Source: Candidatus Yonathbacteria bacterium (GTDB lineage: Bacteria; Patescibacteriota; Minisyncoccia; Phycocordibacterales; JACNGX01). From it: a stretch of 45,328 nucleotides of DNA. Each line of letters begins with the position of its first letter. Positions within the stretch are counted from its first letter, which is position 1. The DNA is taken from positions 404,731-450,058 of the forward strand of contig JAAXWR010000001.1 in assembly GCA_013334825.1 (NCBI GenBank). Reading direction: 5' to 3'. Shown piece by piece: positions 11,655-24,308 of the stretch. The position numbers and the translations under genes are program-made. The notes below the pieces were generated by a model, which saw only the letters and a program-made list of their open reading frames with translations, ran no database searches and was not told where the DNA came from.

Positions 11655-11741
11655 GCCGAGGTGGCGAAATTGGTAGACGCAGTAGACTCAAAATCTGCCG
11701 GTGGCAACACCATGAGGGTTCAAGTCCCTCCCTCGGCACCA
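11655..11741 (+). tRNA. tRNA-Leu (anticodon CAA), CCA encoded
   Basis: Acceptor GCCGAGG / CCTCGGC, discriminator A and an encoded CCA. The D-arm region has TTGGTAGACGC. The anticodon stem GTAGA / TCTGC encloses CTCAAAA (anticodon CAA). A class II long variable arm (CGGTGGCAACACCATG) and the T-arm GAGGG-TTCAAGT-CCCTC complete it. It reads the UUG codon. It is followed at once by an inverted copy of its own 3' end that forms a terminator, and then by tRNA-associated repeat modules. Of the five tRNAs here it is the only one with CCA in the DNA. Confidence 0.97.
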
Positions 11742-11785: not shown

Positions 11786-12150
11786 AGCGAGCCAACTGCT
11801 TGGCTCGCGTGAGGGACTTGAAGGCCACAGCCATATCGGAGCACTTGTGCTTCGATGGCGAGGCGGGGTCGCGAACACTTTGCATAATACGAGCTTTAGC
11901 GAAGTATTATGCTTAGTGATTCGTGACCAAGTCCAGATTGTGAGGGACTTGAACCGAGCACCACTTTTGTAATGACAAAAGTTGTGCTCGGCGTCCAGCG
12001 ATACTTAGTGAGCGACCAGCTCTGCTGGAAGCGAGCTTAGTAATCGCGGGACAAGTCCCGACCGAGGAGCGAGCCAACTGCTTGCCTTCCGCTCGCCTCA
12101 CCGAGACACTTTCACAGAAAAGTGAAGGTGGGTGAAGGGCTTGAAATAAT
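11786..12150 (+). repeat. tRNA-associated hairpin modules downstream of tRNA-Leu(CAA)
   Basis: No gene. In order: hairpin GCGAGCCAA-CTGC-TTGGCTCGC (11787-11808); an inverted T-arm copy GAGGGACTTGAA (11811-11822); a hairpin with stem GCCAT / ATGGC and ATCGGAGC (11830-11859); a long AT-rich hairpin (about 11868-11928); a second inverted T-arm copy GAGGGACTTGAACC (11942-11955); a GAGCACCAC hairpin (11956-11989); a further hairpin; GGGACAAGTCCCG (about 12048-12062); and a degenerate GCGAGCC hairpin (about 12069-12095). The same modules recur after the other tRNAs of the window. Confidence 0.8.
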
Positions 12151-20553: not shown

Positions 20554-20625
20554 GGCCACGTAGCCAAGTGGTAAGGCAAGGGTCTGCAAAACTCTTATAC
20601 GCGGGTTCGATTCCCGCCGTGGCCT
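20554..20625 (+). tRNA. tRNA-Cys (anticodon GCA)
   Basis: Acceptor GGCCACG / CGTGGCC with U discriminator; D-arm TAGCCAAGTGGTAAGGCA; anticodon stem AGGGT / ACTCT around CTGCAAA (anticodon GCA); T-arm GCGGG-TTCGATT-CCCGC. CCA is not encoded (TCAC follows). The 3' end is repeated inverted in the terminator, and tRNA-associated modules follow. Confidence 0.96.
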
Positions 20626-20668
20626 CACGAAAAAGCCCCCTCAAGGGGCTTTTCTCGTGAGGCCACGG
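20617..20668 (+). terminator. Terminator stem built from an inverted copy of the tRNA-Cys 3' end
   Basis: CCGTGGCCTCACGA (20617-20630) is repeated inverted at 20654-20668. The inner stem AAAAGCCCC / GGGGCTTTT is the terminator proper. Confidence 0.85.
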
Positions 20669-20890
20669 AGCGAGCCAACTGCTTGGCTCGCGCTTGCCTT
20701 GCCGAAACTTGTCTAAAGACAAGTGAAGGCGGGTCGAGAATCGAACCGAGCACCACTTTTATAATGATAAAAGTGGTGCTCGGCGTCCAGGAGTACTTGG
20801 CAGAATGCAAGTTTACGCAGCATTATGCCTAGTAACTCCGGGACGATTCCCGAGGTACTATGCACTTCTTCCGAGAATCGATTCTTATAA
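20669..20890 (+). repeat. tRNA-associated hairpin modules downstream of tRNA-Cys
   Basis: No gene. In order: GCGAGCCAA-CTGC-TTGGCTCGC hairpin (20670-20691, same as after tRNA-Leu and tRNA-Lys); a short ACTTGTCT / AGACAAGT hairpin (about 20707-20723); an inverted T-arm copy CGAGAATCGAACC (20735-20747), here matching tRNA-Cys; GAGCACCAC hairpin (20748-20781); GGCGTCC and a long AT-rich hairpin (about 20790-20838); a direct T-arm-like copy GGGACGATTCCCG (about 20839-20852); and CGAGAATCGATTC (about 20872-20884). Confidence 0.8.
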
Positions 20891-22635: not shown

Positions 22636-22819
22636 AAATTTAATATCTATAATACTGTTGATAGACCAAGCATAACGACACTGAAAAATAAATACAACTA
22701 TACACTGTTCTCAGTTTGTATTATGGTATAACACAAAATATATAAAATCCAAGGCATCAGTTTACTAAAAACAGCATCAAAGATACTACGTCTACAGAAT
22801 TCTCAAGAAAATAAGTGAT

Positions 22820-23106
22820 TAGGCTCAAAGCCTTTGTCCGAGACATTGGAAATTTGCACCATACCCTCATGTTTTTTCATAAACAAAATGCTGCTGGACC
22901 TGCCGACAGGCAGGCGCGGCTCCCCAGCCCTACGTTCATGTAGTACGCATACATACGCACGAATTTTAATTCATGTAATACAGTTGTTACACATACTATC
23001 GTACATCATGAACGTAGGGCTGGGTCCGCCGTTCGAACCCCGGCGCAATGCAAGCAGTTGCATTGCTCTCTGGGCACACAAAAAAGCGCAAAAGCGCTTT
23101 TTTGTG
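22820..23106 (-). repeat. tRNA-associated hairpin modules downstream of tRNA-Leu(UAA)
   Basis: Read in tRNA direction (right to left): the GCAATGCAA-CTGC-TTGCATTGC hairpin (23045-23066), a compensated variant of the GCGAGCCAA hairpin with the same CTGC loop; GGGGTTCGAAC (T-arm-like); and a long stem CCCAGCCCTACGTTCATG / CATGAACGTAGGGCTGGG (about 22933-23026) enclosing AT-rich sequence. Nothing coding is visible. Confidence 0.75.
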
Positions 23107-23115
23107 TGCCCAGAG
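23068..23115 (-). terminator. Terminator stem built from an inverted copy of the tRNA-Leu(UAA) 3' end
   Basis: 22-bp perfect arms, CTCTGGGCACACAAAAAAGC then GC (23068-23089), and the inverse at 23094-23115 around a 4-nt loop. The last bases of the tRNA acceptor and T-stem form the outer part. Confidence 0.88.
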
Positions 23116-23190
23116 CGGGATTCGAACCCGCGCGATCTTGCGATCAAGGGATTTTAAGTCCCTCGTGTCTACCAACTCCACCACCTGGGC
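23107..23190 (-). tRNA. tRNA-Leu (anticodon UAA)
   Basis: Acceptor GCCCAGG / TCTGGGC (one G-U) and discriminator A. The D-arm has TTGGTAGACAC. The anticodon stem AGGGA / TCCCT encloses CTTAAAA (anticodon TAA). A long variable arm (TGATCGCAAGATCGC) and T-arm GCGGG-TTCGAAT-CCCGC follow. CCA is not encoded. Confidence 0.96.
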
Positions 23191-23191
23191 A

Positions 23192-23696
23192 ATGTGAAGA
23201 TTATACTGTATTTCCCTGAAATTGTCTGCCCCACATCGCTAAAGCGAAGTGATGCGGACGGAGAGACTTGTTCCGCGGTTACTAATCATAATGCTCCAAG
23301 CACTCGCATTTTTATAAGTACCGCTATGACGTCGAGCACCACTTTTGCCATTGCAAAAGTGGTGCTCGGTTCAAGTCTCTCGGGCCCAGCTCTACTTTCA
23401 TATATTCACAGGGTGTAAAAAAAATATAAAAAACACAAAAAACGTATATAATAAATATACGTTTTTTGAAAGTAGAGCTGGGTGCGGACGGAGAGACTTG
23501 TCCCGGAGTTACTAAGTAACATGCTCCAAGTATTCGCATGTTACTAAGTACTCCTGGACGCGGCGTGCCATCGTCGCCTAAAGGCTCCGATATGGCTCCG
23601 CCGTTCAAGTCTCTCGGCCGGGACACATTGTCCCGTCCAGGGAAACCAGAGATTACCTCACTATAGAAAATCAACAAATGGAGATGTTGTGCAAGT
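23192..23696 (-). repeat. tRNA-associated modules in tandem downstream of tRNA-Leu(UAG)
   Basis: No gene. The 17-bp 3' end of tRNA-Leu(UAG), GCGGACGGAGAGACTTG on the plus strand, occurs at 23698-23714 (the tRNA), 23484-23500 and 23254-23270, giving two units of 214 and 230 bp. In tRNA direction unit 1 has an inverted T-arm (GAGAGACTTGAAC), a GCCAT-ATCGG hairpin (23567-23596) and a long GGAG-TTACTAAGTAACATGC hairpin (about 23512-23556). Between the units lies a CCCAGCTCTACTTTCA / TGAAAGTAGAGCTGGG stem (about 23394-23483). Unit 2 has an inverted T-arm (GAGAGACTTGAACC), a GAGCACCAC hairpin (23334-23367) and a second long hairpin (about 23272-23330). Confidence 0.85.
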
Positions 23697-23777
23697 GCGG
23701 ACGGAGAGACTTGAACTCTCATGGGTTGCCCCACTGGTTCCTAAGACCAGCGCGTATACCAATTCCGCCACGTCCGC
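23697..23777 (-). tRNA. tRNA-Leu (anticodon UAG)
   Basis: Acceptor GCGGACG / CGTCCGC with A discriminator. The anticodon stem CTGGT / ACCAG encloses CTTAGGA (anticodon TAG). A long variable arm (GTGGGGCAACCCAT) and T-arm GAGAG-TTCAAGT-CTCTC complete it. CCA is not encoded. It is the third leucine tRNA of the window. Confidence 0.96.
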
Positions 23778-24116
23778 AATATAGATATTAAGCACAACTT
23801 TTGCCATTGCAAAAGTTGTGCTCGGTTCGATTCCTGGCTTGCCACGCCAAAGCTTTAGCGAAGGCAGGCTTGCCACGCCGAAGCCTTGGCGAAGGCGGGG
23901 CGCGAGCCAAGCAATTGGCTCGCTGTGTCTGGACACCACTGTGTCCATCCTACCTGAGAATCGTCCCGCGGTTACTAATAAAAATGCTCCGAGCACTCGC
24001 ATTTTTATAAGTACCGCTGGACGTCGAGCACCACTTTTGTATAGACAAAAGTGGTGCTCGGTTCGATTCCTGGCGCGAGCCAAGCAGTTGGCTCGCTGTG
24101 TCTGGACACCACTGTG
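23778..24116 (-). repeat. tRNA-associated modules in tandem downstream of tRNA-Lys
   Basis: In tRNA direction: a GGACAC / GTGTCC hairpin continuing the tRNA end; GCGAGCCAA hairpin (24075-24096); an inverted T-arm (GCCAGGAATCGAACC, about 24061-24075); GAGCACCAC hairpin (24026-24059); a long GCGGTACTTA...TAGTAACCGC hairpin (about 23967-24017); a direct T-arm-like GGGACGATTCTC. A second copy follows: the block 23902-23960 repeats 24075-24133 almost exactly (period 173), with its own GCGAGCCAA hairpin (23902-23923) and an AGCACAAC hairpin (23791-23823). A 31-bp direct repeat (GGCTTGCCACGCC...) lies at 23837 and 23868. Confidence 0.85.
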
Positions 24117-24189
24117 TCCATCCACCAGGAATCGAACCTGGAACCTGCCGGTTAAGAGCCGGATGCTCTACCAATTGAGCTATGGATGG
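24117..24189 (-). tRNA. tRNA-Lys (anticodon CUU)
   Basis: Acceptor CCATCCA / TGGATGG with A discriminator; TA-GCTC D-arm (AGCTCAATTGGTAGAGC); anticodon loop CTCTTAA (anticodon CTT); T-arm CCAGG-TTCGATT-CCTGG; 73 nt. CCA is not encoded. Confidence 0.96.
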
Positions 24190-24262
24190 ATATCGTATTA
24201 TTCCGAAGAATACTATCGATGAGAAAAGTATATCAAAAACCTGCGGGAATGCAACGACCTCA

Positions 24263-24299
24263 TATACAAAACAAACGCCTGAGGCGCTTGTTTTGTATA
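24263..24299 (-). terminator. Terminator of the pilin-like gene cluster
   Basis: Long stem TATACAAAACAAACGCC / GGCGCTTGTTTTGTATA around TGA, just after the last pilin-like gene (minus strand). The inner stem ends in TTGTTTTGT. Confidence 0.8.
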
Positions 24300-24308
24300 C
24301 TTTTTTTC

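Follow-up and report, generated by a model that had tools for sequence, protein, structure and literature searches.

A family of small folded units follows transfer RNA (tRNA) and transfer-messenger RNA (tmRNA) genes in Candidatus Yonathbacteria and its relatives. Two such units lie in tandem behind tRNA-Leu(UAG) in the stretch analysed here, 45,328 nucleotides (nt) of assembly GCA_013334825.1 (contig JAAXWR010000001.1, positions 404,731 to 450,058; hereafter the window). The family has a fixed anatomy, a hairpin with covarying stem positions, arms matched to the neighbouring tRNA, a spread across one bacterial order, a variable number of units and, at some loci, genes of its own. The favoured explanation, held with slightly under even confidence, is that these are mobile cassette-like units docked in the T-loops of tRNA and tmRNA genes. 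The family suggests that gene cassettes can use tRNA genes as docking sites.

The 17-mer GCGGACGGAGAGACTTG occurs at 23254, 23484 and 23697, and three exact copies inside 0.5 kb exclude chance. ARAGORN places tRNA-Leu(UAG) at 23695-23777 on the minus strand, which makes the third copy the 3' end of that gene, starting at T-loop base C56. An earlier note on this DNA had reported three direct copies of the tRNA-Leu(UAG) 3' end; they are present, with the third at 23697 rather than 23698 and the spacings 230 and 213 nt rather than 230 and 214. The space between the copies contains no clear gene and is taken up by hairpins. Both units include the T-arm in inverted copy, and they share a 60-nt hairpin (A) with the unit after tRNA-Lys(CUU), in which the inverted arm is of the tRNA-Lys type (Table 1). 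The inverted copies, the shared hairpin and the like units at other tRNAs of the window had been overlooked.

Unit anatomy was read along the tRNA strand from the tRNA flanks of the genome that holds the window (G000; 839 kb, three contigs, 41 tRNA genes). A full unit runs in the order P (the tRNA 3' end from about C56), an optional gene, t, P2', hairpin C, P1', hairpin B and hairpin A. The element t is a terminator-like hairpin with runs of A and T, P2' is the inverted acceptor strand, and P1' is the inverted T-arm. After hairpin A comes a further copy of P, either that of the next unit or a displaced old tRNA 3' end. Hairpin C is often present, in its standard form as a stem of 9 base pairs (bp) with the loop CTGC, and is set where acceptor and T-stem meet in the inverted copy, between positions 65' and 64'. 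Hairpin B is variable and A conserved, the two combine differently between units, and a further hairpin, D, replaces t or the tip of A in several units.

Pairing in hairpin A is preserved by compensatory change across an order. The 19 G000 copies from which a model of the hairpin (R1) was built contain 66 double-change cells over the 22 pairs of the stem, against 21.4 after shuffling. A second set, of 82 distinct sequences from other genomes, contains 268 against 70.5; the lower stem of this set is partly fixed by selection because an exact 3'-arm pattern was used to pick it. One pair is U-A in 57 of the 82 sequences and C-G in 21, and the stem contains a conserved bulged A and a conserved U-U mismatch. 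The junction P'-B-A-P is predicted to form a three-way junction with T-arm/acceptor sequence as its outer stem, as in the DNA fold of a window unit, where P1'/P, B and A meet (z -8.6). In the 9-bp stems of hairpin C, G-U wobbles outnumber A-C by 7 to 0, which points to the tRNA-sense strand as the folded strand. Hairpin A has the same G-U bias only once the columns explained by the bulge and mismatch are excluded. Two adjoining units after a tRNA-Asp (L181:5200-7000) are near-identical in t, P1' and B and differ in the upper stem of A on both arms together, which suggests that the tip of A changes as one block.

The arms of the units fit the adjacent tRNA far beyond chance. Matching was assessed in 101 units, left from 129 entries after removal of duplicates and of those with no tRNA or tmRNA gene within 500 nt or no recognizable T-loop. 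The inverted arm agrees with its own tRNA at 9 or more of 10 positions in 65 of the 101 units, compared with a mean of 5.0 and a maximum of 11 when tRNAs are permuted. The acceptor part of the downstream copy, which was not used to place that copy, agrees at 7 or more of 8 positions in 31 units (permuted mean 1.25, maximum 7), and the downstream copy is identical over 18 nt in 18 units. Among units whose two copies differ, the better match to the tRNA is the inverted arm in 45 and the downstream copy in 22.

Cores appear to travel between tRNA loci although the arms match the local tRNA. Genome G028 has near-identical A hairpins at Gly(TCC), Trp, Arg(TCT), Arg(GCG), Lys(UUU) and Arg(TCG), with a different T-arm-like sequence behind each one, near to that of the tRNA concerned, and the Arg(TCT) and Ser(TGA) units of G000 have B and A in common but not the arms. 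Mean distance between A hairpins is 0.37 within genomes at different tRNAs; between genomes it is 0.435 at tRNAs for the same amino acid and 0.444 otherwise. The downstream copy departs from the tRNA at Arg(CCT), Lys(CUU) and Glu(CTC), where it is the inverted arm that tracks the tRNA. At Arg(CCT) of G000, the downstream copy is similar to the 3' end that this tRNA has in G001, a second species of the genus, with tRNA and inverted arm changed together. In the second unit at Glu(CTC), the inverted arm follows the middle P copy, not the tRNA. Some loci, such as Leu(CAG) and Tyr, have a second terminator after the last P copy. These patterns agree with C56-bounded units that bring their own 3' end and terminator and displace the old 3' end downstream. 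They also agree with correction of the inverted arm by template switching.

The element is confined to one order in the phylum sample. Strong R1 matches number 22 in G000, and copies occur in 23 of the 60 genomes of a relatives set in which G000 is counted. In the phylum sample (379 genomes, 17 of the same order; stricter filters than for the relatives), the element is present in seven genomes, all among the 17, and in none of the 362 outside. A scan of named genomes with a 17-nt pattern gave 118 stretches, mostly from Paceibacteria/Parcubacteria (Yonath-, Nomura-, Kaiser-, Campbell-, Taylor-, Lloyd- and Vogelbacteria), and R1 was run on 78 of these plus two viral contigs. Pattern matches in Flavobacteriales, Polynucleobacter, Prevotella and Oscillospiraceae (L113, L132, L179, L190) and in Shapirobacteria (L187) have no R1 match and were taken as chance. 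The viral contigs held two exact matches to the 17-nt pattern, neither with an R1 match, and none to a longer pattern; among the matches listed for phage and plasmid records, nothing appeared beyond the tRNA-Leu stretch itself.

Most copies of hairpin A are placed downstream of tRNA or tmRNA genes. A tRNA or tmRNA gene lies within 450 nt upstream on the same strand for 20 of 20 G000 copies, a set made of the 22 strong copies minus three farther from a tRNA, plus a weak copy at Val(TAC). The three left out lie 786 nt from tRNA-Asn, 2248 nt from tRNA-Ser(CGA) and, at C1:154931, with no tRNA nearby. The same 450-nt distance holds for 6 of 8 copies in G001, 12 of 14 in G028 and 7 of 12 in G041, and 67 of 84 pattern-selected copies in the named genomes have such a gene within 700 nt. 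The 101 units analysed for arm matching follow 18 tRNA types and tmRNA (the latter also by Rfam in L058).

Some units carry genes. At four loci, the tRNA and the last P copy match at 12 of 12 positions and are separated by 786 to 2248 nt (about 0.8-2.2 kb) that bear genes; one of these loci is a two-unit array, and most units of the family are geneless. The tRNA-Asp locus L181 has a geneless unit and then a second composed of P, an open reading frame (ORF) of 361 amino acids (aa), a terminator, t, P1', B and A, before a final P. The tRNA-Gly unit of L164 has a 163-aa ORF on the opposite strand followed by t, P2', C, P1', B and A. In G000, tRNA-Ser(CGA) is followed by ORFs of 321 and 276 aa, the latter product weakly nucleotidyltransferase-like, and tRNA-Asn by one of 180 aa. 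No integrase-like protein was found among the gene-bearing units examined. This layout is that of a cassette array in which the tRNA comes first, and the earlier note's statement that the units carry no gene is true of the two Leu(UAG) units and not of the family.

Unit number differs between two species of one genus, G000 and G001, in line with the earlier note, which had proposed a comparison of unit number between strains. In G001, tRNA-Pro(CGG) is followed by two identical 176-nt units, which G000 lacks; units at Tyr, Val(GAC) and Lys(UUU) are confined to G000, and both species have one at Gly(CCC) and Arg(CCT). As a separate observation, the G000 tRNAs for Tyr (L245/L250), Val(GAC) (L244/L249) and Lys(UUU) (L246/L251) are inverted relative to their neighbours when compared with G001. 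Glu(TTC) has a unit in G000 only, with its orientation to Ser(CGA) kept.

Table 1. Units and their parts at tRNA genes of the window, with positions counted from its first letter.
Feature	Position	Strand	Basis or remark
tRNA-Leu(UAG)	23695..23777	-	ARAGORN, Rfam RF00005; 3' end from C56 (P_u) 23696-23713
Unit 1 trailer, tRNA to inverted arm	23617..23694	-	Position of terminator-like hairpin t elsewhere
Unit 1 inverted T-arm copy (P1')	23603..23617	-	Direct repeat D8, inverted repeat I4
Unit 1 hairpin B	23560..23602	-	Fold
Unit 1 conserved hairpin A	23500..23559	-	R1 match 84.6 bits; covariation
Direct copy of tRNA 3' end, unit 1 end / unit 2 start	23482..23500	-	Direct repeat D5
Unit 2 D hairpin (CCCAGCTCTACTTTCA ends), in place of t	23385..23482	-	Inverted repeat I14
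Unit 2 inverted T-arm copy (P1')	23369..23383	-	Direct repeat D8
Unit 2 hairpin B, GAGCACCACTTTTG type	23331..23368	-	Direct repeat D2, inverted repeat I10
Unit 2 conserved hairpin A	23270..23330	-	R1 match 66.1 bits
Outer direct copy of tRNA 3' end (P_d)	23253..23270	-	Direct repeat D5
tRNA-Lys(CUU) with unit	24116..24189	-	ARAGORN
Hairpin C of tRNA-Lys(CUU) unit	24075..24096	-	Inverted repeat I6
P1' and B of tRNA-Lys(CUU) unit	24025-24073	-	
Hairpin A of tRNA-Lys(CUU) unit	23963..24022	-	R1 match 85.2 bits
Diverged P_d of tRNA-Lys(CUU) unit, after hairpin A	23943-23963	-	
Partial unit after tRNA-Leu(UAA): t, P2', C, P1', D hairpin; without A	22923..23115	-	Inverted repeats I2, I3
Hairpin A of tRNA-Cys(GCA) unit (tRNA 20554-20626)	20785..20844	+	R1 match
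Two hairpins A, two tandem units after tRNA-Leu(CAA) (tRNA 11655-11741)	11867-11928, 11993-12052	+	R1 match

Several structures accompany the family. Hairpin D is an element about 100 nt long that has CCCAGC(C/T)C(T/C)ACTTTCAT as its inverted ends, found in the window at 22923-23024 and 23385-23482 and at L019, L030, L025, L031, L045 and L039. It sits at the tips of other hairpins or directly after the GCA of a tRNA, and the interrupted stem remains paired; it looks like a separate miniature element that favours hairpin tips. A second core type, GAGGGGGTCGGGGAA...GTCCGCGAAACCGTGGGTTTCGCGAGCGCA...GAGCAGTGAG, occupies the same P'/P frame and is missed by R1 (L037, L039 and L034; tRNA-Tyr, Arg(TCG) and Pro(TGG) of G000). 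Other G000 tRNAs have tandem copies of the 3' end or trailer without hairpin A, in units of about 113 nt after Ile(GAT) (L029) and about 85 nt after Ala(TGC) (L026), and likewise after Ile(TAT) (L027). A long repeated trailer, also without hairpin A, follows tRNA-Trp (L033).

If the units are mobile cassettes, the junction P'-B-A-P may act as a folded single-strand recombination site, like the attC site of integrons, with a tRNA gene's T-loop as its partner in strand exchange. The incoming unit would supply a replacement 3' end, and the tRNA would therefore stay whole. Template switching between the inverted copies could keep the arms matched to the local tRNA, and slippage between P repeats could also alter unit number. 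A fuller version of this proposal is put forward only tentatively. It holds that the units form an independently evolved integron-like system, with docking at tRNA and tmRNA genes and a three-way-junction single-strand site whose arms are copied from the tRNA. Cassettes with or without genes would enter T-loops, leaving the tRNA unbroken, through host Xer or another enzyme.

The units share features with integron gene-cassette arrays. Both consist of tandem units in which genes are optional and the order of parts is fixed. Both have, at each junction, a folded palindromic site with unpaired bases (hairpin A carries conserved ones), in which structure is kept rather than sequence, and in both the outer arms of that site are divided, one unit's end supplying one part and the next unit's start the other. 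In the passages of PMC4792948 that treat it, attC is recognized as a folded single strand, its structure is conserved over its sequence, and unpaired bases choose the strand. The present units differ in that they dock in tRNA T-loops instead of attI, many are geneless, the arms copy the local tRNA, the core is a three-way junction, and G000 has no integron integrase (IntI). They work like an integron cassette array but, by the comparisons made here, do not count as one: no integron integrase is present, and attC boxes were not seen by eye.

Several points weigh against mobile cassettes. The weakest step is that a recombinase model alone leaves matching to a different tRNA unexplained. By eye, hairpin A does not display the R/L boxes of attC, with their conserved AAC/GTT crossover triplet and consensus GTTRRRY; its conserved stem is GTTACTAA/AAGTAC with the bulge and mismatch. 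Five of the 12 G041 copies have no tRNA or tmRNA gene within 450 nt, at least three of them without T-arm arms, and 17 of the 84 copies in named genomes have none within 700 nt, although 9 of the 17 still end in T-arm-like sequence. No excision or insertion event was seen, and alignment of G000 and G001 junctions for an empty site failed because the intergenic DNA is too diverged. Compensatory change can also be produced by template switching, according to the parts of PMC8794818 that address it, but this would not account for the conserved bulge and mismatch of A.

Nor does any enzyme class track the element. The earlier note had looked to a tRNA-targeting tyrosine recombinase in the genome; the single PF00589 match in G000 is instead Xer-like (128.7 bits, where the integrase_gron cut-off is 265), and most relatives have one. 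G000 also encodes one Y1 transposase and one serine recombinase, with no IS110 transposase or reverse transcriptase found. Across the 60 genomes of the relatives set, none of these four classes is significantly associated with the element (p 0.11 to 1.0), so serine recombinase, IS110 and reverse transcriptase were rejected as mobilisers. Three of the 23 positive genomes (G004, G022 and G038, the last with seven copies) have the element and none of the four. Because the sole tyrosine recombinase is Xer-like, use of host Xer, as by CTX-phi, is one candidate enzyme route. The reaction in which CTX-phi uses host XerCD is similar to cassette insertion, as described in sections of PMC4792948. Serine recombinase genes also occur near tRNAs, immediately downstream of tRNA-Ser(TGA) in G001 (L096, contig C49) and about 1.5 kb downstream of tRNA-Gln(CTG) in G000 (C1:104756-106790); both loci are probably larger integrated elements.

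Of the alternatives, the one that survives best, while still unlikely, is that the units are a structured noncoding RNA of tRNA operons with a role like that of rtT. A read-through transcript would form a tRNA-like minihelix (acceptor 7 bp, T-stem 5 bp, C in place of the D and anticodon arms, and B and A as a cap) with a host function, and copies would spread by gene conversion. Covariation across the order is in keeping with such an RNA, as are the 9-bp, CTGC-looped hairpin C between 65' and 64' of the inverted arm and the 7-to-0 excess of G-U over A-C in its stems, which is expected if the tRNA-sense strand folds. Release of rtT RNAs from tyrT and other tRNA operons, reported in portions of PMC4986893, offers a precedent. 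A terminator-like t nevertheless stands between most tRNAs and the unit, the unit is missing from most tRNAs and most relatives, and gene-bearing versions exist. Rfam searches of ten loci gave only tRNA and tmRNA at gathering level, and cmscan gave no rtT match to an E value of 5 in window positions 22800-24300, where microRNA-like matches fell far below gathering scores and were set aside. Like the units described here, the rtT repeats of E. coli are elements in tRNA trailers, and those of tyrT include a copied tRNA 3' end. They are not known to have an inverted T-arm, an A/B/C core or gene-bearing units.

It is less probable again that the units are a mutational by-product, in which fold-back template switching and slippage act at trailers, hairpins spread by gene conversion, and nothing is mobile. 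Template switching makes and repairs inverted repeats, by which arms become alike, as stated in parts of PMC8794818 and PMC7202029. Some tRNAs, such as Thr(TGT), have P2-t-P2' alone, and slippage between P repeats could yield tandem units. A by-product would not be expected to place one B-A core, with its order kept, at 18 tRNA types and tmRNA across an order, gene-bearing units with perfect P repeats, or a conserved bulge and mismatch inside A. 'U-turn' replication as the sole origin of the arms is retained only within this explanation.

The earlier note had read the units as tandem non-autonomous integrative elements mobilised in trans and had pointed to a tyrosine recombinase; that they are plain elements of this kind, with the inverted arm incidental, is improbable. 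Part of it stands, in that direct T-loop repeats bound the units, unit number varies, and some loci bear genes. It overlooks the inverted tRNA-matched arm and the covarying core; the inverted arm is the closer fit to the local tRNA in 45 units, against 22 for the direct copy, and G000 has only one tyrosine recombinase, Xer-like, with one in most relatives. Finally, movement of repetitive extragenic palindromic (REP)-like repeats by the Y1 (RAYT) transposase is very improbable: the repeats are small and folded and G000 has one Y1_Tnp gene, but that gene is flanked by its own palindromes and not by A, B or C, Y1 occurs in 18 of 23 genomes with the element and 22 of 37 without it (p 0.17), and G013 and G038, with 5 and 7 copies, have none. 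Several TACCAAGGTTTAACCTTGGTA palindromes lie just upstream of a RAYT-type Y1 transposase gene (L232:1236-1439) and are likely a REP family of their own.

Other known systems overlap with the units in part. Integrative elements and islands that target tRNAs also have a direct repeat of the tRNA 3' end, a T-loop boundary and an element that restores the tRNA; the present units differ in being mostly about 0.1-0.3 kb, without an integrase, at 18 tRNA types and with one common core. Elements that use Xer, such as CTX-phi, employ a folded single-strand site with the host enzyme, in the account given in part of PMC4792948, and Xer is the sole tyrosine recombinase of G000. Their target is dif, whereas here it is a tRNA T-loop, and Xer would be a candidate by analogy. 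REP/REPIN sequences with RAYT are likewise small, dispersed and palindromic; the RAYT gene of G000 is flanked by other palindromes, and the units are placed at tRNAs. No description of such elements was found in the open-access PMC literature, which argues only weakly for novelty.

The genomes of Patescibacteria are very small, and little is known in them by way of gene-capture machinery. If the cassette explanation is true, units that match their tRNA, spread their core and carry genes would constitute a route of gene capture beside integrons and tRNA islands. They would also offer a test case for the origin of folded single-strand recombination sites from plain tRNA attachment sites.
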